Source of the DNA: Sphingomonas sp. HMP9
Lineage (GTDB): Bacteria; Pseudomonadota; Alphaproteobacteria; Sphingomonadales; Sphingomonadaceae
NCBI RefSeq assembly: GCF_013374115.1
Contig: NZ_AP022673.1
Coordinates: 896,501-960,500 of the forward strand
Reading direction: 5' to 3'
Length of the DNA: 64,000 bases
Of this stretch, positions 1,729-24,276 are shown piece after piece. The translations under genes and the position numbers were made by a program. Within the stretch, counting starts at the first letter, position 1. Every line of letters starts with the position of its first letter. Below the pieces are notes generated by a model. That model was not told the DNA's origin. It was given only the letters and a program-made list of their open reading frames with translations, and did no database searches.

Positions 1729-4046
1729 TGGTCGATCAGGTGAAAAAGGTCTGCGTCATCGGCGCAGGCGTGATGGGCGCGGGCATTGCGGCGCAAATCG
1801 CGAACGCCGGCATTCCTGTGCTGCTGCTCGACATCGTACCCCGTGAGGGCGACGATCGCGACGCCGTGGCGAAGGGCGCCGTCGCCAAGATGCTCAAGAC
1901 CGACCCCGCGCCTTTCATGTCGAAGCGTGCGGCCAAGCTGGTCGAGACGGGCAATATCGACGACCATCTGGACCGGGTCGCCGAGTGCGACTGGATCGTC
2001 GAGGCGATCGTCGAGCGGCTCGACATCAAGCAGTCGCTCTACGCCAAGCTCGAGACGTTGAAGCGTCCGGGTACCGCGGTGTCGTCGAACACTTCGACGA
2101 TCCCGCTCGGCCATCTGGTCGAGGGGCGTTCGGACCAGTTCAAGGCCGACTTTCTCATCACCCACTTCTTCAACCCGCCGCGCTACATGCGGCTGGTCGA
2201 GATCGTCCGCGGTGCGCAAACCGACGTCGCGGTCGCCGAGAAGGTCGAGAATTTCGTCGATCGTTTCATGGGCAAGCGGATCGTCCGTGCGAAGGACACG
2301 CCGGGCTTCATCGCCAACCGCATCGGCACCTATTGGCTGGCGGTCGCGATCAACGCGGCGATGGACCAGGGGCTGACCGTCGAGGAGGCCGACCAGATCG
2401 GCGGCCGGCCGATGGGCGTGCCCAAGACCGGGATTTTCGGGCTCGTCGATCTCGTCGGCGTCGACCTGATGCCGCTGCTGACCAAGAGCCTGTCGTCGAC
2501 GCTGCCCGCGGGCGATCCCTATTTCGACACGGTGCGCGACATGGCGCTCGTCGACAAGATGATCGCGGAGGGCTTTACCGGCCGCAAGGGCAAGGGCGGC
2601 TTCTACCGCTTCGACAAGGCGACGCGCACCAAGCTTTCGCTCGATCTCGCGACCGGCGAATACCGGCCCGAGGCGAAACCCGCCGACCTGCCCGGCAAGA
2701 CCGGCAAGGATATCGCCGCGCTGATAGCCGAACCCGGCAAGATCGGCACCTATGCGTGGACGATCCTCGGCAGCGTTCTGTCCTATGCCGCGATGCTCGT
2801 CGGCGAGGCGACCGACGACATCATCGGCATCGATGACGCGATGAAGCTCGGTTATAACTGGAAATACGGGCCGTTCGAACTGATCGACCGGGTGGGGCCG
2901 GGCCTGCTCGCCCAGCGTCTGGCCGCCGAAGGCCGCGACGTGCCCGTTATCCTGAAGACGGCGGGCGATCGTCCGTTCTACCGCGTCGAGGACGGCAAGC
3001 GTCAGTATCTGACCACCGCCGGCGACTATGCGGATGTCCCGCGTGGCGATGGCGTCGAACTGCTCGAGGATATCAAGCTCCGCTCGCAGCCGATTCTGAC
3101 GAACTTGTCGGCGTCGCTCTGGGATGTCGGCGACGGCGTAGCCGCGCTCGAATTCCACACCAAGATGAACGCGCTCGACGATCAGGTCGTGGCGTTGATC
3201 GAGGAAGCGATCCCCGTGGTGCAGGACCGCTTCAAGGCGCTGGTCGTCTACAACGAAGCCAGCAACTTCTCGGCGGGTGCCAATCTGGGTGCGGCAATGT
3301 TCGCAGTCGGTGCGGGCCTTTGGGACATGGTCGAGGCCAGCGTCGCCAAGGGCCAGGCGGCGTACAAGGCGCTCAAATACGCCCCCTTCCCTGTCGTCAG
3401 CGCGCCGGCGGGCCTCGCGCTCGGTGGCGGGTGCGAGATGCTGCTCCATTCGGATGTGGTGCAGGCGCATGCCGAGACCTATGCGGGCCTCGTCGAATGC
3501 GGCGTCGGTCTCGTCCCCGGCTGGGGCGGTAATGGCGAGATGCTCGATCGCTGGACCAAGTCGGGCATGCTGCCCAAGGGCCCGATGCCGGTGCTGACCG
3601 CGGTGTTCACGAGCATCTCGACCGCGGTCGTCGCCAAGTCGGCGGCGGAGGCGAAGGAGATGATGATCCTGCGCAAGGACGACGGCATTACCATGAACCG
3701 CGACCGGTTGCTGGCGGACGCCAAGGCCAAGGCGCTGTCGCTGGTCGACGGCTATGTCGCACCGGAGGCGCCGACCTTCCGCCTGGCGGGCGAAAGCGGC
3801 CGCACGGGGCTGAGCATGGCGGTCGCGGACTTCCACAAGAAGGGCATGGCGACCGACTACGACCTCGTCGTCGCGGATCGGCTTGCCGAGGTGCTGACCG
3901 GTGGCGAGGCCGATCTGATCGACACCGTGACCGAGGACCAGCTGCTCGACCTCGAGCGCGCTGCGTTCATGGCGAGCGTGAAGGATCCGCGCACGCAGGC
4001 CCGTGTCGTCCATATGCTGCAGACGGGCAAGCCGCTGCGGAACTGA
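1725..4046 (+). CDS. Bifunctional 3-hydroxyacyl-CoA dehydrogenase / enoyl-CoA hydratase (FadN-type)
   Basis: A 773-residue fusion enzyme performing the hydration and NAD-dependent oxidation steps of beta-oxidation. The order is dehydrogenase first, hydratase last, as in B. subtilis FadN rather than E. coli FadB. The N-terminus carries a Rossmann loop (VIGAGVMGAGIA, residues ~10-21). The 3HCDH C-terminal domains follow (DTPGFIANRIG near 190; a second GPFEL region near 385). A crotonase fold lies at ~465-700 with NFSAGANLG and ALGGGCEML as the oxyanion-hole segments. The start overlaps the thiolase stop; ATG at 1725 or 1728 are both possible. It forms an operon with fadA. Confidence 0.92.
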   Translation: MMVDQVKKVCVIGAGVMGAGIAAQIANAGIPVLLLDIVPREGDDRDAVAKGAVAKMLKTDPAPFMSKRAAKLVETGNIDDHLDRVAECDWIVEAIVERLDIKQSLYAKLETLKRPGTAVSSNTSTIPLGHLVEGRSDQFKADFLITHFFNPPRYMRLVEIVRGAQTDVAVAEKVENFVDRFMGKRIVRAKDTPGFIANRIGTYWLAVAINAAMDQGLTVEEADQIGGRPMGVPKTGIFGLVDLVGVDLMPLLTKSLSSTLPAGDPYFDTVRDMALVDKMIAEGFTGRKGKGGFYRFDKATRTKLSLDLATGEYRPEAKPADLPGKTGKDIAALIAEPGKIGTYAWTILGSVLSYAAMLVGEATDDIIGIDDAMKLGYNWKYGPFELIDRVGPGLLAQRLAAEGRDVPVILKTAGDRPFYRVEDGKRQYLTTAGDYADVPRGDGVELLEDIKLRSQPILTNLSASLWDVGDGVAALEFHTKMNALDDQVVALIEEAIPVVQDRFKALVVYNEASNFSAGANLGAAMFAVGAGLWDMVEASVAKGQAAYKALKYAPFPVVSAPAGLALGGGCEMLLHSDVVQAHAETYAGLVECGVGLVPGWGGNGEMLDRWTKSGMLPKGPMPVLTAVFTSISTAVVAKSAAEAKEMMILRKDDGITMNRDRLLADAKAKALSLVDGYVAPEAPTFRLAGESGRTGLSMAVADFHKKGMATDYDLVVADRLAEVLTGGEADLIDTVTEDQLLDLERAAFMASVKDPRTQARVVHMLQTGKPLRN

Positions 4047-11462: not shown

Positions 11463-11523
11463 CTAGAAGTTTGAACGGCCGGCGGTCCGGGCGTTGATCG
11501 GAACAGGTGACGGAGAGGAAGTC

Positions 11524-12849
11524 ATGACAATCCACCAGCCGATCAACGCCGCAGGCGAGACCGCCGGCCAGAGCGAGTACCTCCCCGGCTTCGGCAACCA
11601 CGTATCGACCGAAGCCGTCCCCGGCGCACTGCCGATCGGCCGCAATTCCCCGCAACGCCCGGCGTTCGGACTCTACACCGAGCAGCTCTCCGGCACCGCC
11701 TTCACCGCGCCGCGGCATGAGAACCGCCGCAGCTGGCTCTACCGGATGCGCCCGACCGCCGAGCATCCGCCGTTCGAACGTTACACCGGCGCGAAGCGGT
11801 TCGCCCCCGGCACTACCGACGCGCCGCTTGCGCCCAATCGCCTGCGCTGGGACCCGATCGAAGCACCTGCTTCCGGCACCGATCTGGTCGACGGCATGAC
11901 GACGATGCTCGCCAACCGCGATCCCGCCGACCTTGAGGGCGTCGCGCTCCACGTCTACGCCGCCAATACCGACATGACCGACCGCGTGTTCATGGACGCG
12001 GACGGCGAGCTGTTGTTCGTGCCGCAGCACGGCCGGCTGCGGCTGCTGACCGAACTCGGGCGGATCGATGTCGCCCCCGGCCAGATCGCGCTGATTCCCC
12101 GCGGCGTCCGCTTCCGCGCCGAACTCCCCGACGGAGAAGCGCGCGGCTATGTCGCGGAGAATTACGGCCCGTTGTTCCGCCTGCCCGATCTCGGCCCGAT
12201 CGGTGCCAACGGCCTCGCCAACCCGCGCGATTTCGAGACGCCGTTCGCGTGGTTCGAGGATCGCGACGCGCCGGTCGAGGTCGTCCAGAAGTTCATGGGA
12301 TCGCTGTGGACCACCACGCTCGATCATTCGCCGCTCGACGTCGTCGCGTGGCACGGCAACCTTGCCCCCTGGCGCTACGACCTGTCGCGGTTCAACACGA
12401 TCAACACGGTCAGCTTCGACCATCCCGATCCCTCGATCTTCACGCTGCTGACCTCGCCCAGCGACGTGCCCGGCCGCGCCAACGCCGATTTCGTGATCTT
12501 CCCGCCGCGCTGGATGGTGGCGGAGGGGACGTTCCGCCCGCCCTGGTTCCACCGCAACATCATGTCCGAGGCGATGGGGCTCATCACCGGCGCGTACGAC
12601 GCCAAAGCCGAGGGGTTCGCGCCCGGCGGCATCTCGCTGCACAATCTGATGTCCGGCCACGGCCCCGATCTGGCAAGCTGGCAGGGCGCGAGCGCGGCCG
12701 ACCTGAAGCCGCACAAGATCGACGGGACGATGGCATTCATGCTGGAGAGCTGCTGGCCCTACGCACCGACCGACTATGCGCTGGACCATGCGCAGCTCGA
12801 TTACGACGCGGTCTGGTCCGATTTCCCCAAGGCGATCCTGCCGCGGTGA
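11524..12849 (+). CDS. hmgA: Homogentisate 1,2-dioxygenase
   Basis: A 441-residue cupin-type Fe(II) ring-cleaving dioxygenase converting homogentisate to maleylacetoacetate. Family stretches include [13 protein letters not shown] near residue 20, [13 protein letters not shown] near 67, and the C-terminal metal site [24 protein letters not shown] (~325-350), where the H-x-N-x-MSE pattern matches family iron ligands. I start at the ATG preceded by GGAGAGGAAG; a further in-frame start 30 bp upstream gives an unsupported extension. The stop overlaps the maiA start codon. Confidence 0.94.
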
Positions 12850-13490
12850 CCCCGACGCTCCACGGCTATTGGCGCTCGACCGCCGCCTACCGGGTCCGCA
12901 TCGCGCTCGCCGTGAAGGACGTCGACTATGCGCAGGTCCCGCATGACCTGCGCACCGGCGCGCACCGCGAGCCGGGCTACCGTGCGCTCAATCCGCAGGC
13001 ACTCGTGCCGGCACTGGAAACCGACGACGCTGTCCTGACGCAGAGCCCCGCGATCCTCGAATGGATCGACGAGACCTATCCCGATCCTCCTTTGCTTCCG
13101 GCCGACGCGAATGGTCGCGCAGTCGTCCGCGCGATGGCCGCGACGATCGCGTGCGATATCCACCCGGTGAACAACCTGCGGATCCTGAACGCGCTGCGGA
13201 GCGAGTTCGGCGCCGACGATGCCGCCGTGAACCGCTGGATCGCGCGCTGGATCGGCGAGGGGTTCGCCGCGCTGGAGGTGATGATCGCGCATCATGGCAA
13301 AGGCTTCGCGTTCGGCGCGACGCCAACGATCGCCGACTGCCACCTGGTGCCGCAGGTCTATTCCGCCGAGCGCTTCGGTGTCGATCTCTCTCCCTACCCG
13401 CACCTTAAGGCTGCGGCCGACATGGCCCGCGCCCTCCCCGCCTTCGCCGCCGCGCACCCCGACCGGCAACCGGACGCGGATCGCTCATGA
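12846..13490 (+). CDS. maiA: Maleylacetoacetate isomerase (zeta-class GST)
   Basis: A 214-residue zeta-class glutathione transferase converting maleylacetoacetate to fumarylacetoacetate. It has an N-terminal thioredoxin fold ([18 protein letters not shown], then [10 protein letters not shown] and [13 protein letters not shown] near residue 65) and a helical C-terminal domain ([32 protein letters not shown]). The usual glutathione-activating SS(A/C)SxRVR segment reads STAAYRVR here, with one serine replaced by threonine. The start is GTG inside the hmgA stop (GTGA), indicating tight coupling. No fumarylacetoacetase follows. Confidence 0.9.
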
Positions 13491-13852
13491 GCGACGGCGA
13501 GCGGCTTACCGCCACGCCTAGCGGGATCAAACTCGCGCCGCTCGACACGGTCGCCGAGGGCAAGGCGCGCAACTTCGTGGTGCAGATGCGTGCCGGGCGG
13601 TTTCACGGGTTCGTGGTGCGCAAGGATGACGCGGTGGTCGGCTATGTCGATCGCTGCCCGCATATGGGCCTGCCGCTCGCGCAGGTGCTCGACGACTATC
13701 TCACCCCGCGCGGCGACCTGATCGCGTGCAGCTGGCATTCGGCGCTGTTCGCGATTCACAGCGGCGCATGCGTCGGCGGCCCATGCGCGGGCGCCCGCCT
13801 GACGCCGTGGCCGGTCGCGGTGGTCGACGGGATGATCGTCACCGCAGGCTGA
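13487..13852 (+). CDS. Rieske [2Fe-2S] domain protein
   Basis: A 121-residue stand-alone Rieske protein. Cluster ligands are Cys57/His59 in CPHMG and Cys81/His84 in CSWHSALF, a complete C-x-H...C-x2-H set. There is no signal peptide, so it is cytoplasmic. Its ATG overlaps the maiA stop (ATGA), placing it in the homogentisate operon. Small Rieske proteins of this type usually act as ferredoxin-like electron carriers, but none of the three upstream enzymes needs one. Its partner is unknown. Confidence 0.85.
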   Translation: MSDGERLTATPSGIKLAPLDTVAEGKARNFVVQMRAGRFHGFVVRKDDAVVGYVDRCPHMGLPLAQVLDDYLTPRGDLIACSWHSALFAIHSGACVGGPCAGARLTPWPVAVVDGMIVTAG

Positions 13853-13907: not shown

Positions 13908-14921
13908 ATGACCCAAAATCTCCCCATCCGCGTCGTGGCGCTGTATCGCTTCACGCCGTTCGCCGACATCGCCGCGATCCAGCCGCCGCTTGCGCTCGCA
14001 TGCTGCTCGAACGGGGTGAAGGGTACGCTGCTGCTCGCGGCCGAGGGGATCAACGGGACGATCGCCGGGTCCGAGGCGGGGATCGATGCCGTTCTCGCGC
14101 ATATCCGCGCGCTGCCGGGCTGCGCCGACCTGGAGGTCAAGGAATCGCGCGCCGGGACGATGCCGTTCCACCGCATGAAGGTGCGGCTGAAGCGCGAGAT
14201 CGTCACGATGGGCGAGCCGACGATCGATCCGCTCGACGGCGTGGGCCATTATGTCGAGCCCGCGGACTGGAACGCGCTGATCGCCGAGCCGGGGACAATC
14301 GTGATCGATACGCGCAACGACTACGAAGTGTCGGTCGGCACCTTCGCCGGCGCGGTCGATCCGCAGACACGCAGTTTCCGCGACTTCCCGGCATGGTTTC
14401 GCGCACATCGCGCCGAGCTGGTCGGCGACGGCCCGCCGCCGAAGATCGCGATGTTCTGCACCGGCGGCATCCGCTGCGAGAAATCGACCGCGTTCCTGAA
14501 GGCCGAGGGGCTCGACGAGGTCTATCACCTGAAGGGCGGTATCCTGAAATATCTCGAGACGGTGCCCGAGACGGAGAGCCTGTGGGAAGGCGAATGCTTC
14601 GTCTTCGATCAGCGCGTCGCGGTTGGCCACGGGCTCGTGCCGGGCAGCCACGTGCTGTGCAATGCCTGCCGGATGCCGGTCAGCGTCGCGGAGCGCGCCT
14701 CGCCGCTCTATGTAGAGGGGATCAGCTGCCCCAACTGCCACGACGCGCGGGACGAATCCCAACGCGCCGGCTATGCCGAACGCGAACGCCAGATGCGCCT
14801 AGCCGAAGCCCGCGGCGAAACCCATGTCGGCGCGGTACTCTCCAAGACGCACGGCAATGACGACCACCACACCCCCTCCCGTCGTCCTGACGAAAGTCAG
14901 GATCCAGAGCCAAGGACGTAG
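13908..14921 (+). CDS. trhO: tRNA uridine-34 hydroxylase TrhO (rhodanese family)
   Basis: A 337-residue rhodanese-domain protein of the YceA/TrhO group, which makes 5-hydroxyuridine at tRNA position 34 using O2. The N-terminal domain runs to ~100. The rhodanese domain follows with catalytic Cys184 and Cys190 in [15 protein letters not shown]. The C-terminal zinc-like region has CNACRMP and CPNCHDA. The last ~16 residues are encoded by a palindromic repeat (left arm from 14881) and are probably not ancestral. The 3' end is duplicated downstream at a 285-bp offset, where the copy retains the CPACHDA segment in frame. Confidence 0.88.
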
Positions 14922-14959
14922 CGCGCGTTACCCTGGATCCTGACTTTCGTCAGGATGAC
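14881..14959. repeat. Palindromic dispersed repeat, type A, copy 1
   Basis: Arms 14881-14907 and 14933-14959 are inverted copies with one mismatch. Each arm contains its own small hairpin, CCTGAC-GAAA-GTCAGG. The left arm lies inside the trhO reading frame and supplies its last codons. The structure is REP/BIME-like. Confidence 0.8.
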
Positions 14960-15165: not shown

Positions 15166-15244
15166 GTCATCCTGACGAACGTCAGGATCCAGAGCCAAGG
15201 ACGTAGCGCGCGTTACCCTGGATCCTGACTTTCGTCAGGATGAC
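15166..15244. repeat. Palindromic dispersed repeat, type A, copy 2
   Basis: This is the second copy, carried within the 285-bp tandem duplication. The arms read GTCATCCTGACGAACGTCAG... and its complement. The right arm overlaps the stop region of the ankyrin gene and may act as its terminator. Confidence 0.8.
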
Positions 15245-15762
15245 GGACTAGGGTCAGCAAATCGCGCGGCCAACGCTGTATTGCCCTGCGACAGCGCCAG
15301 CGAGTGCACGGTGTTGCCCGCAGCATCCGCAACCGATGCGTCCGCGCCATGCTGCAGCAGCAGGTCGATGATCGCCGTCTTGTTCACCAGCGCCGCCATC
15401 ATCAGCGCGGTCTGGCCGACACCGTTGCGGCGGTTCACGTCCGCACCCGCGTCGAGCAGGATCTGCGCGATCTCGGCATAGCCCTTGAAGCAGACGCCCA
15501 TCAGCGCGGTATTGCCGCGCGCATCCGCCGCGCCGTCGACCTGCGCGCCTGCCGCGAGCAAAGCCGCGGTGGCGCCGGGCTGGCCGTTATAGCTCGCGAT
15601 CACGAGCGGCGTGTAGCCCTTCTGATCGGTCACCTCGATATCGACCCCCGCCTGCAACAAGGCGGGGATCATTTCGTCCCGCCCCGTCCGCGCGGCATCG
15701 AACAGCAATTCGATGAGCCGCTCGATCGGCGGCAAGGGGGGGAGTTCGCGCACGTCGCTCAT
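15235..15762 (-). CDS. Ankyrin-repeat protein
   Basis: A 175-residue cytoplasmic protein made of about four ankyrin repeats from residue ~30 to ~165. The repeats are GYTPLVIASYNGQPGATAALLAAG, GNTALMGVCFKGYAEIAQIL, GQTALMMAALVNKTAIIDLL, and a last degenerate AGNTVHSLALSQGNTALAAR. Ankyrin domains mediate protein-protein contacts. The start lies 2 bp from the stop of the upstream ATP-grasp gene, so it is the last gene of the DUF2170/PspA-like operon. Its 3' end runs into the duplicated repeat segment. The binding partner cannot be read from sequence. Confidence 0.85.
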   Translation of the reverse strand: MSDVRELPPLPPIERLIELLFDAARTGRDEMIPALLQAGVDIEVTDQKGYTPLVIASYNGQPGATAALLAAGAQVDGAADARGNTALMGVCFKGYAEIAQILLDAGADVNRRNGVGQTALMMAALVNKTAIIDLLLQHGADASVADAAGNTVHSLALSQGNTALAARFADPSPSS

Positions 15763-15763
15763 A

Positions 15764-16924
15764 CTAGGCCTCGATGATATGCGGCACGAACCGCGCGAGA
15801 TTGCGCGTCACCACCGTATCATCTTCCCGAACGCCGATCCCCGCGGCTTCGTTGCCAACCATCCACGCGCCGATCACCGGATGCCGCCCGTCGAACACCG
15901 GCGGCGGCGCATAGGCCTGCCGGATCGCACCCTCGGCGCCATAGCCCTGATCGAGCACCGCATGCGCTGCGTCCCCGATCACCTCGACATTGGCACCCTC
16001 GCGCGAGAACAGCGGTTTCCGCACATATTTGGGACCCAGGATCTGCGCTGCGGGATCGTCGTCGAAAAACGCCGGCAGCAGGTTGGGATGCCCGGGATGC
16101 CGCTCCCACAACAGCGGCAGGATGCCCTTGTTCGACAGGATCGACTTCCACGCCGGCTCGATCCAGCGCACGTCGGCGCGCGACAGGTTCGGCGCATAAG
16201 GCTCGCGCAGCATGAACTCCCACGGGTACAGCTTGAACGCCGCCTGCACCTCATAGCCGTCGGTATCGACGAAGCGGCCATCGGCAGCGAGCCCAATGTC
16301 CTTCATCTCGACGAACTTGGGCTCGATCCCGACCTGGCTCGCCAGATCCTCGAAGAACCGCACCGTCTGGCGGTCCTCGATCGCCGACGCATCCGCGGCG
16401 AAATGGACGAACCCACCGCTCGGGAACAGCGCACGGAACCGCTCGCGCAGTTTGTCGAACAGGCTGTTGAACTGGTCCGTCCCCGCCGGCAGCTTGCCGC
16501 TCGCGAGCAGATCCTCCAGCCACATCCACTGGAACGTCGCGCATTCGAACACGGAGGTCGGCGTGTCGGCGTTATATTCGTAAAGCTTGGCCGGACCCGT
16601 CCCGTCATAGGCGAAGTCGAACCGCCCATAGAGTGACGGCTGGCGTGTCCGCCACGTCTCGGCGACGTAGTTCCACTGCTCGCGCGGGATGGCCAGACGT
16701 TCCATCAGCTGCTGGTCGCGGACAACCTCGTCGACGAGATCTAGGCACATCGCGTGCAGCTGTTCCGAGACGGGCTCGAGATCGTCCTCGATCTCCGCCA
16801 GCGTGAAGGCATAGGCCGCGCCCTCGTCCCAATAAGGCTCGCCGTCGGTGTCGTGATAGACGAACCCGATCGCGTCCGCCCGCTCACGCCAGTCGCTACG
16901 CGGGTCGACCGCGATCCGGCGCAT
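15764..16924 (-). CDS. Glutathionylspermidine-synthase-like ATP-grasp ligase (YjfC/YgiC type)
   Basis: A 386-residue ATP-grasp protein of the glutathionylspermidine synthase C-terminal family. Visible segments are YEYNADTPTSVFECA near residue 115, WIEPAWKSILSNKGILPLLW near 260, and KYVRKPLFSREGANVEV near 300, which carry Lys/Arg/Asn residues expected for ATP and Mg binding. It lacks the N-terminal CHAP amidase domain of the bifunctional E. coli Gss, like YjfC and YgiC. It probably ligates an amine to a peptide, but the substrate is unknown. Its start overlaps the PspA-like stop (TGATG). Confidence 0.88.
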   Translation of the reverse strand: MRRIAVDPRSDWRERADAIGFVYHDTDGEPYWDEGAAYAFTLAEIEDDLEPVSEQLHAMCLDLVDEVVRDQQLMERLAIPREQWNYVAETWRTRQPSLYGRFDFAYDGTGPAKLYEYNADTPTSVFECATFQWMWLEDLLASGKLPAGTDQFNSLFDKLRERFRALFPSGGFVHFAADASAIEDRQTVRFFEDLASQVGIEPKFVEMKDIGLAADGRFVDTDGYEVQAAFKLYPWEFMLREPYAPNLSRADVRWIEPAWKSILSNKGILPLLWERHPGHPNLLPAFFDDDPAAQILGPKYVRKPLFSREGANVEVIGDAAHAVLDQGYGAEGAIRQAYAPPPVFDGRHPVIGAWMVGNEAAGIGVREDDTVVTRNLARFVPHIIEA

Positions 16925-17667
16925 CAGCTGTCCTTGCTATCGTCGCGCTGGCCGATCTGCAGCGTCTGACCGAGTTCCGGCGTCTTCGGCGCGGTCAGGC
17001 GCGCAAGCACGTCGTCCGCCGACGACTGGCCAGGGCCGATACCCGCAAGCCGCAGCTTCTCGTCGAGATCGGCGCCGGTACGACGGTCTTCCAGTTCGCC
17101 CGCGGCCTTGATCCGCTCGCCACGGATCGCCTGGCGTTCGCGGATCCGTGCGAGGCTGTCGGCGGCCGAACCGAGCTTGTTGCCCGCCCCCATGCTGCCC
17201 GACGCGACCGAGGCCTGCGCCTTCTGCACCGACTCGTTGACCTTCACGACCTCGACCTCGCGGCGGAGCTGCTCGATCTTGCGGTCGGTCTGCGCGACGG
17301 CGGTATGGATCTGCTCTTCGGCGGCGCGCATGTCCTCGACCTGCGGGCTCTTCAGCGCGATATCCTGTTCGAGATCGGCGATCCGCTGCGCGACCTGGCG
17401 CGCGAGATCCATATTACCTTTCTCGACCGCGATGCGCGCCGATGCCTCGTACTTGGCTGCCTGCGCACGGAAGCTCTCGACCTCGGTCTCGAGGATCCGG
17501 CGGCGCGCGACGAGCCCGGCGAGATCATCACGCGCTTTCCCCTGCGCCTTGTCCGCATCGCGAATTTCCTGATCGAGGATGCGGAGCGCGTTCGCGTCGA
17601 CGACCGCCGCGCCCGCTTCGTGCGCGCCGGCACGACCGAGGGTGAAAAGCTTGCTCCAGATGGCCAT
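16924..17667 (-). CDS. PspA/IM30-family protein (YjfJ type)
   Basis: A 247-residue, mostly coiled-coil protein of the PspA/Vipp1 family, the bacterial ESCRT-III-like membrane-stress effectors. The N-terminus (MAIWSKLFTLGRAGAHEAG) could be the amphipathic membrane-binding helix. It is followed by NALRILDQEIRDADKAQGKA and a long heptad region to ~165. The tail after ~180 is charged and flexible. I start at the ATG preceded by GGAGAG; an in-frame upstream start would add 29 unlikely residues. It lies between the DUF2170 gene and the ATP-grasp gene, the same company YjfJ keeps in E. coli. Confidence 0.9.
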   Translation of the reverse strand: MAIWSKLFTLGRAGAHEAGAAVVDANALRILDQEIRDADKAQGKARDDLAGLVARRRILETEVESFRAQAAKYEASARIAVEKGNMDLARQVAQRIADLEQDIALKSPQVEDMRAAEEQIHTAVAQTDRKIEQLRREVEVVKVNESVQKAQASVASGSMGAGNKLGSAADSLARIRERQAIRGERIKAAGELEDRRTGADLDEKLRLAGIGPGQSSADDVLARLTAPKTPELGQTLQIGQRDDSKDS

Positions 17668-17692
17668 GCCAGTCTCTCCGTTTGTATCTAGT

Positions 17693-18127
17693 TCAGGCGG
17701 CGGGAATCTGCGCGTGGCGCAGGTCGGTGGCCGCATCGATCGCGTTCTCGGCAAGCGTGCGCAGTTCGATGATCACGGTATCGAGCCGGCTCGACGTCGC
17801 CAGTTCGCCGAACAGCTCGTAATAATCGCGGCCGTCGACGGTGCCGATCCCGAAGTTCGACAGCGGCACCAGCTTCTGCGACTTCAGCAGGAAGGTGTTG
17901 AACGCCAACTGGTCCTCCTGCTCGTCGCACGGCCAGAGCAAGGTCGAACACGCGATCTGCGCCTCGCTGACGTTGACGAACAGCTCGAGATCGCCGTGCT
18001 GGTGCATCGTCACCAGCAATACCGGGTCCGCGCCTTCCAGGATCCGCGCGGAAAACTCGCCAGCCTTGGCAGGCTCGGACGTATCGAGCGCCGCCTTCAG
18101 GCTGCGGACGGTCCAGATTTCGGTCAA
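17693..18127 (-). CDS. DUF2170 family protein (YjfI type)
   Basis: A ~144-residue cytoplasmic protein without signal or membrane segments. Recognisable parts are ILEGADPVLLVTMHQHGDLELFVNVSEAQI (about residues 25-55), ending a stretch of alternating beta strands, and LPLSNFGI-like LVPLSNFGIGTVDGRDYYELFG (~85-105). I prefer a TTG start at 18127 because GGGAG sits 8 nt upstream. An in-frame ATG at 18202 would add 25 residues. It is the first gene of the leftward arm, 25 bp before the PspA-like gene. The family function is unknown; it is consistently linked to YjfJ. Confidence 0.8.
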   Translation of the reverse strand: MTEIWTVRSLKAALDTSEPAKAGEFSARILEGADPVLLVTMHQHGDLELFVNVSEAQIACSTLLWPCDEQEDQLAFNTFLLKSQKLVPLSNFGIGTVDGRDYYELFGELATSSRLDTVIIELRTLAENAIDAATDLRHAQIPAA

Positions 18128-18219
18128 TGCAAGAACTCCCGTGCTTGTCGCGTGGCGCACACATAGGACATTCACAAGCGCCTGCCACCCTCCCTCCGCC
18201 ATGCTTCCCCCCTTCTTAC

Positions 18220-18300
18220 GTCATCCTGACGGAAGTCAGGATCCAGGGTGACGAGGCGACGCACTGTTTGGCTCTGGATCCTGACTTTCGTCAGGATGAC
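18220..18300. repeat. Palindromic dispersed repeat, type A, copy 3
   Basis: Arms 18220-18246 and 18274-18300 match the trhO-associated copies almost exactly (CCTGACGGAAGTCAGG and CCTGACTTTCGTCAGG cores). It sits inside the divergent promoter gap between the DUF2170 and DUF2491 genes, an unusual position that puts a strong hairpin in or near one 5' UTR. Confidence 0.82.
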
Positions 18301-18387
18301 GGAGTTGTGTCGGAGTCGTCTATGACCGTTGGCGAACCCGTGCAGATCGGCCTATGCTGAAAGCCAACAAACCAACGTGAGGATTGC

Positions 18388-19029
18388 ATGTTCGATCGCC
18401 TGTTCGGCCGCAAGCCAGCGCTTGACGGCAACGCGCTGCCCGTCGTCCGCAACGTCACGCTGGGACGCACGGTGACGGTCGACCCGCTCGCCTGGCGCCG
18501 GTTCGGCGACGAACTGCTGTTCCCCTTCGACCGCGATACGCTGGTGATCGTCGCGCAGGGGCTGATCGACCTCAACGAAGGCGGCTTCGTCCACCGATTT
18601 TATACCGACGACGACATCATGTTCCAGGCGGTGTCGAACGACCGCGCCGGGCAGGACGTGACCGACGTCACGCTGTTCGCGCCTTGGGACAGCGCCTACC
18701 CGTCGTCCGCCGCCGAGCGTCCCGCATGGAAAAGCCGCCTCAAGGCGCGCACCTTCACGGCAAAGGGGCTGCCCGAGTATGGCAGGTCCTGGTTCGGCCC
18801 AGACGCGAGCGAGCAGGAGCCGGTGACGTTCTGGGAAGAACTGCACGACGACCGCGACGGGATCGTCGACCGCCGCATCTTCCAGACCTGCATGCTGTTC
18901 AGCCGCGACCTGCCAGGGGACGACGGCCGCGAACTGCTGCTTGCGATCGACATGGAAACCGAGTCCGGCGAGGTATCTTTCGAGATCATGCTGGGCGTGG
19001 CACTGGAACTCGGCGAGTTCCGCGCCTAG
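18388..19029 (+). CDS. DUF2491 family protein (YjfK type)
   Basis: A 213-residue soluble protein. It starts MFDRLFGRKPALDGNALPVV, then TLGRTVTVDPLAWRRFG, then a long beta-rich part (FVHRFYTDDDIMFQAVSND, residues ~70-90, and CMLFSRDLPGDDGRELLLAIDMETESGEVSFEIMLGVALELGEF at the C-terminus). E. coli YjfK has the same architecture. It is the first gene of the rightward arm. Function is unknown; conserved neighbourhood with PspA-like proteins suggests a role in envelope stress or membrane maintenance. Confidence 0.85.
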   Translation: MFDRLFGRKPALDGNALPVVRNVTLGRTVTVDPLAWRRFGDELLFPFDRDTLVIVAQGLIDLNEGGFVHRFYTDDDIMFQAVSNDRAGQDVTDVTLFAPWDSAYPSSAAERPAWKSRLKARTFTAKGLPEYGRSWFGPDASEQEPVTFWEELHDDRDGIVDRRIFQTCMLFSRDLPGDDGRELLLAIDMETESGEVSFEIMLGVALELGEFRA

Positions 19030-19061
19030 CGTCTGTCGCTGACGGCTTCGGGGGAACCAGC

Positions 19062-19475
19062 ATGATCGACCAATACAGCTTCGGCGCCAGCGCGCTTGCC
19101 TTCCTGATCGCGTTCGTCGCGGCGGGGGCGTTCACCATCGTGTTCAAGATCGTCTATCAGGTGGCGACGCCGTATCATGAAAAGTCTCTGATCCGCGAAG
19201 GCAATACTGCCGCTGCGATCACGCTTGGTGCCGCCTTGCTCGGCTATGTCCTGCCGCTGGCGTCGGCGTTGACGCATACCGTTACGCTGATCGAGTTCGC
19301 GGTGTGGGCGCTGCTTGCGGGCGTGATCCAGATCGTAACGTTCCTGATCGTGCAGCATTTCGTGATGCGCGATTTCAACGAGCGTATCGTCCGCGGCGAA
19401 ATCGCCGCTGCAACCTATATGGCAAGCATCTCGCTGTGCGTCGGCATCCTCAATGCCGCCTGCATGACGAACTGA
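19062..19475 (+). CDS. DUF350 membrane protein (YjfL type)
   Basis: A 137-residue inner-membrane protein with about four transmembrane helices: FGASALAFLIAFVAAGAFTIVF, the AAITLGAALLGYVLPLAS stretch, FAVWALLAGVIQIVTFLIVQHF, and AATYMASISLCVGILNAAC. The conserved loop ESLIREGNTAAAI-like KSLIREGNTAAAITLGAALLGY is a DUF350 hallmark. The ATG is preceded by GGGGGAA. It lies 32 bp after the DUF2491 gene and 11 bp before the DUF1190 gene, in one operon. Confidence 0.9.
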   Translation: MIDQYSFGASALAFLIAFVAAGAFTIVFKIVYQVATPYHEKSLIREGNTAAAITLGAALLGYVLPLASALTHTVTLIEFAVWALLAGVIQIVTFLIVQHFVMRDFNERIVRGEIAAATYMASISLCVGILNAACMTN

Positions 19476-19486
19476 GGGGCATAGCG

Positions 19487-20056
19487 ATGAAGCGTTCCAG
19501 ATCGATCGTTCTCACCAGCCTGATCGCAGGCTCGGGTATCTCGCTGACGGCGTGCGACGGCGATGTCGGCGGCAAGCCGGTCGAGGCGCAGAGCTATGCG
19601 TCGGTGCAGGAATGTCGCGCAGCGGGTGCGCTGTCGGCAGTGCAGTGCGACACCGCGTTCGAGCAGGCCAAGGCCGACGCGGCGAAAACCGCACCACGAT
19701 TTCAGGACAGGCAGACCTGTGAAGAGCAATATGGTGCCGCGCAGTGCGAACCGCGCAACAACGGCAACGGCGGCAGCTTCTTCACGCCGCTGCTGACGGG
19801 ATTCCTGGTCGGACAGGCGCTCAACGGCGGCTTCGGCAACCGTGGCGCGCCGATGTACCGCGACCGCGACGGCAATTATTACGGTGGTGCGGGCGGACGG
19901 ATCAACCGTGACTATGTCACCGGGCGAACCCGCGTAGGCTCGGATGCGTTCACACCAACTACCGCAAGAGCTCCTGCCCGCGTTCAGTCGCGCAGTTCGG
20001 TCATCTCGCGCGGTGGCTTCGGCGGCGGCTTTGGCGGGCGCAGCTTCGGGGGATAA
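19487..20056 (+). CDS. DUF1190 lipoprotein (YjfM type)
   Basis: A 189-residue protein with a lipoprotein signal: MKRSRSIVLTSLIAGSGISLTAC, lipobox LTAC. The mature part has the DUF1190 pattern of paired cysteines (VQECRAAGALSAVQCDTAFEQA and TCEEQYGAAQCEPR, residues ~42-85). It then becomes Gly/Arg/Tyr-rich (GNYYGGAGGRINRDYV) and ends in a Gly-Phe-rich tail. It would be anchored in the periplasmic leaflet or outer membrane. As the last gene of the rightward arm, it completes the set of YjfI-M homologues. Confidence 0.85.
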   Translation: MKRSRSIVLTSLIAGSGISLTACDGDVGGKPVEAQSYASVQECRAAGALSAVQCDTAFEQAKADAAKTAPRFQDRQTCEEQYGAAQCEPRNNGNGGSFFTPLLTGFLVGQALNGGFGNRGAPMYRDRDGNYYGGAGGRINRDYVTGRTRVGSDAFTPTTARAPARVQSRSSVISRGGFGGGFGGRSFGG

Positions 20057-22684: not shown

Positions 22685-23329
22685 ATGCATCACGATGAAG
22701 GTTTTCCGGTATCGCGCCGTGGCGTGATTGCCGGCGGTGTCGCGTCAGCCACGCTGGCCGCGGCACCCAGCGCGCAGGCCCAGGCGCAGGGCAGCGTCCA
22801 GCCGGCCCCGCCCACGATGCCGGTCACGCTCAAGGTGAACGGCCGCGCAACCAAGATCAATGTCGACACGCGGACCACGCTCCTTGACGCGCTGCGCGAG
22901 AATCTGAAGCTCACCGGCACAAAGAAGGGCTGCGATCACGGCCAGTGCGGTGCGTGCACGGTGATCGTCGAGGGTCGCCGGATCAACAGCTGCCTCACCC
23001 TCGCGGTGATGCACGAAGGCGAGGAGATCACCACGATCGAAGGTCTCGGCACGCCCGAGAAGCTCCACGCGATGCAGGCCGCGTTCGTCAAGCATGACGG
23101 CTATCAGTGCGGCTATTGCACGCCGGGCCAGATCTGCTCGGCGGTCGCCACGCTCGGCGAGATCAAGGCGGGCATCCCCAGCCATGTGACGGGCGACATC
23201 GCCGCGCAGCCGACGGTCAGCACCGACGAACTGCGCGAGCGGATGAGCGGCAACATCTGTCGCTGCGGCGCCTATGCCAACATCATCGACGCGATCCACG
23301 ACGTCGCAGGTACGGAGCGCACGGCATGA
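22685..23329 (+). CDS. paoA: Aldehyde oxidoreductase [2Fe-2S] subunit, Tat-exported (PaoA/YagT-like)
   Basis: A 214-residue iron-sulphur subunit of a molybdenum hydroxylase. A twin-arginine leader is visible ([24 protein letters not shown]). The plant-ferredoxin-type cluster uses [11 protein letters not shown] and the downstream Cys in SCLTL. The second cluster uses [10 protein letters not shown] and CRCG. E. coli PaoABC, a periplasmic aldehyde-detoxifying enzyme, is the closest model. Its stop overlaps the next start (ATGA). Confidence 0.9.
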
Positions 23330-24276
23330 AGGCCTTTACCTACGAGCGCGCCACCTCGGCCAAGGAGGCCGCGAGCGCCGCGGCCCGCATGCCGGGCGCC
23401 AAGTTCATCGCCGGCGGCACCAACCTGCTCGACCTGATGAAGCTCCAGATCGAGACTCCCCAGCATCTGATCGACGTCGACGGCCTGGGCCTCGACAAGA
23501 TCACGCCGACCGCCGACGGCGGCCTGCGAGTCGGGGCACTGGTCCGCAACACCGATCTCGCCGCTGATGCGCGTGTGCGCAAGGACTACGGCGTGCTCAG
23601 CCGCGCGCTCGTCTCTGGTGCGTCGGGCCAGCTCCGCAACAAGGCGACGACCGCGGGCAACCTGCTCCAGCGCACGCGCTGCCCCTATTTCTACGACACC
23701 ACCAAGCCCTGCAACAAGCGCCAGCCGGGCAGCGGTTGCGCCGCGATCGGCGGGTTCAACCGCAACCTCGCGATCATGGGGACTAGCGAGGCGTGCATCG
23801 CCACGCATCCGAGCGACATGGCGGTCGCGATGCGTGTGCTCGACGCGACCGTGGAGACGGTGAACGCCGCCGGCGCGACGCGTGCGATCCCGATCGCCGA
23901 CTTCCACCGCCTCCCCGGCACCACACCGAACATCGAGACGGCGCTGGCGCCGGGTGAACTGATCACCGCGGTGACGTTGCCCAAGCCGATCGGCGGCACG
24001 CATATCTACCAGAAGGTGCGCGATCGTGCGTCCTACGCGTTCGCGCTGATCTCGGTTGCGGCGGTGATCCAGCCCGGCGGTCGTGGGCGGCTCGCCTTTG
24101 GCGGCCTCGCGCACAAGCCCTGGCGGGTCGAGGCGGCCGAGGCGCAGATGCCCAATGGGGCCAAGGCCACCGCAGCGGCGGTTCTTGCCGGCGCCCGCAC
24201 CACGTCACAGAACGCGTTCAAGCTGCCGTTGGTCGAACGCACCATCGGCGCCGTGTTCGAAGACGCGAAGGCCTGA
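23326..24276 (+). CDS. paoB: Aldehyde oxidoreductase FAD-binding subunit (PaoB/YagS-like)
   Basis: A 316-residue FAD subunit passing electrons from the iron-sulphur subunit to the acceptor. FAD-binding segments are [20 protein letters not shown] (~residues 24-43) and the [16 protein letters not shown] region. The inserted cysteines [20 protein letters not shown] (~123-142) correspond to the extra [4Fe-4S] cluster seen in PaoB. This insertion marks it as PaoB-type, not a generic xanthine dehydrogenase medium chain. It has no leader and would ride out with the Tat-targeted PaoA. Confidence 0.9.

Follow-up and report, generated by a model that had tools for sequence, protein, structure and literature searches.

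A conserved Gly-Gly tail as candidate polyamine acceptor of the GspS-like ligase in a PspA-type locus of Sphingomonas sp. HMP9

Described relatives and the Sphingomonas locus

The genes considered here form an ordinary locus, of a kind that has already been described. Ravi et al. (2024) report a DUF2170–PspA pair in an operon with a GspS-like ATP-grasp enzyme, DUF350, DUF1190, DUF2491 and a potassium channel (PMC11237479). We analysed 64,000 nucleotides of Sphingomonas sp. HMP9 (NZ_AP022673.1, positions 896,501 to 960,500; this whole stretch is called the window), in which positions 15235–20056 hold two opposed operons with six yjf-type families and an ankyrin protein gene (Pfam scan, with the starts of the open reading frames, ORFs, rechecked). 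We propose, with confidence only a little better than even, that the ligase of this locus would use the C-terminal glycine of the DUF1190 envelope protein as acceptor for a polyamine, within a PspA-type envelope-maintenance module. The parts worth following are the tail rule on which this proposal is built, its spread to small proteins outside Pfam, and its absence at GspSA (the bifunctional enzyme that makes glutathionylspermidine).

The minus-strand arm is transcribed in the order DUF2170, PspA, GspS-like ATP-grasp ligase and ankyrin protein, and the plus-strand arm carries DUF2491, DUF350 and DUF1190 (Table 1). The arms are tight: the PspA and ligase genes overlap by one base, and a single base separates the ligase stop from the ankyrin start. 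A preliminary description of this DNA had recognized homologues of YjfI, J, K, L, M and C in tight operons on both strands, which the strong Pfam scores confirm; its remark that the biochemistry is not established has to be revised, as RefSeq names YgiC and YjfC peptide–spermidine ligases and the operon had been described by Ravi et al. 2024.

The window shares DUF2170–PspA, the GspS-like ATP-grasp enzyme, DUF350, DUF1190 and DUF2491 with the third group (CesT/Tir-PspA) of Ravi et al. 2024, but adds the ankyrin gene and opposed arms, and lacks the ligand-sensing potassium channel of that group, having 185 bp in that gap. The channel was thus rejected as an obligate part; nor do we treat it as defining the group, since members without it are common (an Ion_trans_2/TrkA_N gene does lie in the inter-arm gap of loci L043 and L062 of our survey; L and G numbers denote loci and genomes). 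In Escherichia coli K-12 the same six families stand in a row (yjfI-J-K-L-M-yjfC), on one strand and without an ankyrin gene, and ygiB-ygiC is the bare pair of tail protein and ligase, with the same kind of tail. E. coli makes spermidine, and peptide–spermidine ligase activity is reportedly claimed in the title of a 2023 Biochemistry paper. YgiC and YjfC have been called peptidylpolyamine synthetases (PMC12568646), and YgiC is stated to be without Gsp activity, citing Sui et al. 2012 (PMC12506659). Furthermore, yjfIJKL, which is raised in evolved strains, has been proposed to be an operon for heat tolerance (PMC12492005), and YgiC, marked as cytoplasmic, changed in amount in the inner-membrane fraction of a min mutant (PMC4858940). 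In the bac operon of Pseudomonas aeruginosa, DUF2170 (structure 8q8o) is likewise found with a PspA-domain protein, and a sigma-54 site is proposed there; no ligase, DUF1190 or DUF2491 is mentioned in the passages of that source cited here (PMC10948618).

A shared tail in proteins beside the ligase

The DUF1190 protein of the window (PF06693 score of 124.3 bits, above the gathering cut-off of 22) has a lipobox-like LTAC sequence (by eye), four further cysteines and a hydrophobic segment, SFFTPLLTGFLVGQAL, and its C-terminus is ISRGGFGGGFGGRSFGG, with the pattern RGGFG...GG. The cysteines are invariant in the alignment. Among the 120 matches listed as its nearest homologues, GG is the end in 116 and R[GS]GFG occurs in 119. 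A similar picture was obtained for the 70 DUF1190 proteins whose locus also contains a ligase (69 from loci of the phylum plus that of the window; two extra cysteine-domain ORFs of L098 are omitted): 57 end in GG, 10 in S, two in T and one in E. Among partners found by the DUF1190 profile, GG is the end in 144 out of 162 (shuffles gave a mean of 8.5 and a largest value of 18), as it is in 13 of 19 partners picked by eye for their tail; the pooled count of 157 out of 181 includes those 19 eye-picked proteins. When similar tails were thinned, 73 of 92 ended in GG. E. coli YgiB ends in SMGG and YjfM in HWGG, and both adjoin the named ligases. The tail is positively charged, with a median of +4 over the last 40 residues. 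Two loci (L098, L249) have extra short proteins downstream of the ligase, with the DUF1190 cysteine region and without the tail.

The survey comprised 196 loci. Of these, 76 surround DUF1190 matches in 397 genomes of the phylum, and 40 were added to them; the other 80 are ligase loci in named genomes, represent the best 80 of 589 relatives and lean to close kin. The samples overlap, species may recur, and the loci are all from Pseudomonadota as far as named. A tail partner is present in 188 of 194 non-GspSA ligase loci, of which 85 were chosen by DUF1190 and 109 by the ligase; for the ligase-chosen loci the count is 103 out of 109. The partner counts were made partly by eye (the regular expression missed true tails in about 10 loci and gave a few false matches), and they include L117, whose partner lies about 5 kb from the ligase. 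For ORFs more than 4.5 kb from the ligase, used as background with false reading frames included, the loose tail test was passed by 36 of 2795 and the strict test by one of 2795. In one survey there were 115 places matching PF03738: 14 are GspSA, one is the window and 98 are among the 194 (G252 and a fragment in G225 were left out).

Where a ligase has no DUF1190 neighbour by Pfam, a small protein with the same tail is found, often directly upstream. Eight such proteins were scanned: seven have no DUF1190 match at an E-value of 0.1, and one lies below the cut-off. The partners share the tail despite different N-terminal parts. At GspSA loci no tail partner was found (0 of 14; four had regular-expression matches unlike the tail). 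We found no description of the tail rule among the literature matches listed, most subscription journals lying outside the coverage, and it may already be published.

Several loci have more elaborate arrangements. In some Bradyrhizobium-type loci (L112, L115, L202 and L223) two tail proteins precede one ligase, one with RGGFGSFAH and a Gly-rich end, the other with a GFGGT segment and, in three of the four, a His/Gly-rich end. In L117, three copies of a small secreted-looking protein, each ending in an HKKNVP..K..KSPGPND-like segment, lie between the tail protein and the ligase (reverse strand, about 2204–3075).

The ligase, its amine and the proposed reaction

The solved structures closest to the ligase are YgiC (7uk8) and YjfC (7uk6), YgiC scoring higher, and the ligase of Sphingomonas sp. 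H160509 is 97% identical to it. It consists of the GSP_synth domain only, has no signal peptide (by eye), and keeps R101, D103, E116, N118 and the DTPT signature, all invariant columns. GspSA and trypanothione synthetase, which join the glycine carboxylate of glutathione to spermidine, belong to the same ATP-grasp family and keep R-x-D...E-x-N, residues with a metal/ATP role in GspSA. The window ligase, however, has neither the N-terminal CHAP amidase domain (found in 14 of 14 GspSA) nor the DSAS signature of the bifunctional enzyme, and its score against NCBIfam NF007801 is 144.7 bits, below the cut-off of 882. The residues after E-x-N-x-D separate the two kinds: they are TPT in 185 of 187 partnered ligases (the other two gave no regular-expression match) and SAS in 13 of 14 GspSA (FAK in the remaining one), with L117 treated here as without tail and L071 and L087 not included. 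Such a split is expected if the peptide site differs between partnered ligases and GspSA.

When a GspS-family enzyme is kept beside a protein whose C-terminal Gly-Gly is conserved, the best reading is that of an enzyme with its substrate. In the reaction that we propose, the module would be built round this pair: the ATP-grasp enzyme would activate the C-terminal glycine carboxylate of DUF1190 and join it to a polyamine, probably sym-homospermidine here, yielding an envelope protein that is polycationic at its end. Together with DUF350, PspA, the CesT/Tir-like DUF2170 partner and DUF2491, DUF1190 in its modified form may then work at the inner membrane, and might stabilize or remodel stressed membrane. 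There is a precedent in SUMO and ubiquitin, whose GG-terminated tails become attached to spermidine through the C-terminal carboxylate with ATP, as proposed here, but by eukaryotic E1/E2 chemistry; we claim analogy and no homology (PMC12270671). The preliminary description had guessed that the ligase acts on a peptide or polyamine conjugate sensed by the other proteins; peptide and polyamine stand as a guess, while the acceptor is more likely the DUF1190 tail itself.

As to the amine, no match to the spermidine synthase (SpeE) family and none to NspC was found in the genome. It does encode a deoxyhypusine-synthase-family protein (PF01916, E-value 8e-88), about 0.65 kb from a decarboxylase-family gene that receives no NCBIfam name above cut-off. 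Pairs of these two families can make homospermidine. A homospermidine synthase of the saccharopine-dehydrogenase type was sought and rejected (of two PF03435 matches one is unnamed and the other is amino-acid dehydrogenase-like, below cut-offs; PF01916 was found instead). In most Sphingomonas species sym-homospermidine is the major polyamine (PMC12453569). The missing spermidine synthase match, the PF01916–decarboxylase pair and this polyamine content together lead us to predict that homospermidine is perhaps the amine in this organism. The same missing match would also suit a tail that in this organism is joined to an amine other than a polyamine (an amino acid, for instance, or an aminolipid) and would thereby become anchored and not cationic, and the DTPT/DSAS signature, which separates partnered ligases from GspSA, can be read in its favour. 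We consider this improbable: the E. coli relatives are named peptide–spermidine ligases, homospermidine resembles spermidine, and candidate genes to make it seem present.

A more serious alternative, possible though clearly less probable than acceptor function of the tail, is that the ligase makes a free peptide–polyamine metabolite from some other small peptide, as GspSA makes glutathionylspermidine, and that the DUF1190 tail stays unmodified and serves to bind the ligase, a metal, the membrane or PspA. Small peptides are the substrates of GspS-fold relatives, and the activity of YgiC/YjfC is, by the title of the paper, on a peptide; a positively charged tail suits membrane binding, and DUF1190 is predicted to be exported. 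It is also called a metal-chelating lipoprotein, which would be another possible job (PMC11237479). The metabolite explanation leaves three observations unaccounted for, namely the conserved last two residues (GG in 144 of 162), the same tail on partners with different N-terminal parts, and the lack of a partner at the 14 GspSA loci.

Several points, including this metal-chelating role, weigh against the tail as acceptor, and a tail that only binds a partner would also be expected to be conserved next to a ligase gene. The predicted lipobox or N-terminal anchor would place the tail in the periplasm, yet the ligase needs cytosolic ATP; it is mainly this that keeps our confidence near one half. 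As a way round, the tail might be modified before export, or the mid segment of DUF1190 might bring it back. The charge pattern fits such a return (in 44 of 44 aligned proteins the cysteine domain has a net charge of zero or below and the remainder is net positive), but the weak hydropathy of the mid segment (median of the mean hydropathy 0.89) does not, and short partners could not use it. A tail that is always cytosolic, by the positive-inside rule, was likewise rejected as a general solution, since in short partners (e.g. in L111 and L123) the tail follows a single membrane segment.

The survey itself holds further exceptions. The last residue is not invariant, with 19 of the 181 proteins ending in S and five in T, E or A. 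Six loci have no partner. Three of them (L179, L182, L209) are truncated where the contig ends; the ligases of L150 and L165 are divergent, lack the E-x-N-x-D-TPT signature and have no tail partner, and L166 has a DTPT ligase for which no tail partner was found, which is unexplained. Two proteins counted as partners by their DUF1190 match have only half of the pattern: that of L197 has the GG end and no motif, that of L203 the motif and another end. On the side of the proposal, genome G012 has no PF03738 match, and its DUF1190 has KGGV instead of RGGF and ends in EGS, which suggests decay of the tail alongside ligase loss, in one event only. None of the seven DUF1190-profile matches without a ligase in the locus (L100–L106) ends in GG, six of them being weak or partial; as a ligase is present elsewhere in G278 and G426, L100 alone is left as a case of loss.

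Gene set, neighbourhood and meaning

All six genes are present in 72 of the 196 loci, so the set is not a chance neighbourhood. (The loci were picked by DUF1190 or ligase, and co-occurrence counts thus cover PspA and DUF2170 only where they occur with these.) DUF2170, PspA and DUF2491 occur together, and along with the ligase, DUF350 and DUF1190. Contig-end cuts aside, the gene sets are nested: tail protein and ligase; these with DUF350; and these with DUF2491, PspA and DUF2170. The three incomplete sets (L179, L182, L217) are all on contigs of 3.5–8.5 kb. That the locus forms one unit, as the preliminary description suggested, is supported by its conservation in the 72 full loci, in which the genes lie on one strand as one operon (28) or in opposed arms (44), the ligase being in the DUF2170–PspA arm, as in the window, in 31 of the latter and in the DUF1190 arm in 13. 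By ORF ends (some ORF starts are over-extended), the gap between the arms does not exceed about 0.2 kb in 29 of the 72. The neighbourhood is conserved in relatives, though presence is patchy in close kin: with its own genome included, three of 118 genomes in the order and 19 of 298 in the family have DUF1190. In a quick tree of the ligases, the layout of the window (25 of 127 rows) needs five changes, against a shuffled mean of 23.2, and 22 of the 25 rows cluster with Sphingomonadaceae and Caulobacteraceae.

The opposed arms could be taken as a sign that the neighbourhood reflects shared regulation only, with the arms doing unrelated work and the tail being structural, e.g. for self-association through RGG/FG segments. 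In the bac operon of P. aeruginosa the DUF2170–PspA pair does stand without the ligase (PMC10948618), and many loci have the ligase and tail protein but no PspA. The ligase, however, is found in either arm and is thus tied to both. We think this explanation the least probable.

The ankyrin gene was rejected as a core part. With a profile built from a single sequence, it was found after the ligase only in L174–L177 and L180, the closest Sphingomonas relatives among the 80 ligase loci (the best 80 of 589 relatives), and in none of L035–L110 and L111–L150. The locus differs from a canonical Psp system in that the scanned neighbours of pspA include no pspB, pspC or pspF (for pspB and pspF the result covers these neighbours only); the genome has a single PspC-domain match, some 0.3 Mb from the locus. 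A scan for promoters and terminators gave no signal exceeding shuffles.

Table 1. Features of the locus, in window positions
Feature	Position	Strand	Evidence
Ankyrin-repeat protein, 175 aa	15235..15762	-	PF12796 3.4e-23
GspS-like ATP-grasp ligase (YgiC/YjfC-like), 386 aa	15764..16924	-	PF03738 (GSP_synth) 1.8e-143; PDB 7uk8/7uk6
PspA/IM30 family protein (YjfJ-like), 247 aa	16924..17667	-	PF04012 2.1e-52
DUF2170 (YjfI/BacA)	17693..18202 at most	-	PF09938 8.9e-45; PDB 8q8o 5.4e-24
Divergent region separating the arms	18203..18387	.	contains REP-like palindrome pair, 18219-18246 + 18274-18301
DUF2491 (YjfK-like), 213 aa	18388..19029	+	PF10679 2.4e-51
DUF350 (YjfL-like membrane protein), 137 aa	19062..19475	+	PF03994 6.1e-33 (slightly short translation)
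DUF1190 (YgiB/YjfM-like), 189 aa	19487..20056	+	PF06693 7.4e-36
Codons of the conserved C-terminal tail RSSVISRGGFGGGFGGRSFGG, proposed polyamine acceptor	19991..20053	+	tail alignments and counts

The Pfam scores of PspA, DUF2170, DUF350 and DUF1190 were obtained with query starts slightly off, which leaves the family assignments unaffected. The start of DUF2170 is unsure (ATG at 18202, GTG at 18175 or GTG at 18160); by kinship its protein probably has a CesT/Tir-like fold.

One 26-base REP-like palindrome arm occurs in three pairs, at 14882–14958, 15167–15243 (touching the 3' end of the ankyrin gene) and 18219–18301 (in the divergent region), which contain all six copies of the window (at most three mismatches). 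Genome-wide there are 239 copies at two mismatches or fewer (control: 0). The intergenic pair was found in L176 and L177, and not in L174, L175 or L180. Elsewhere in the window, 11494–13852 resembles homogentisate breakdown, with a 451-aa homogentisate dioxygenase-like ORF, a glutathione-S-transferase-like ORF (both by eye) and then a small Rieske protein (PF00355), and the translations of 22685–24276 look like the 2Fe-2S and FAD-binding subunits of molybdenum-hydroxylase type (by eye).

More tentatively, and with somewhat less than even confidence, we suggest that the pair represents a widespread bacterial protein-tailing system, in which a GspS-family ligase would add a polyamine (spermidine, or homospermidine where this is the polyamine of the cell) to the Gly-Gly of variable small anchored envelope proteins recognized by RGGFG...GG, with two proteins per ligase in some Bradyrhizobium, and with PspA, DUF350 and DUF2491 as add-ons that use the product. 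Should the tail prove to be the substrate, these uncharacterized envelope genes would gain one testable reaction, the addition of a C-terminal polyamine cap by an enzyme for which structures of the E. coli relatives are available. The tail would also provide a sequence tag for finding further substrates, several of which are small proteins unknown to Pfam, and polyamine level would be linked to PspA-type membrane defence.

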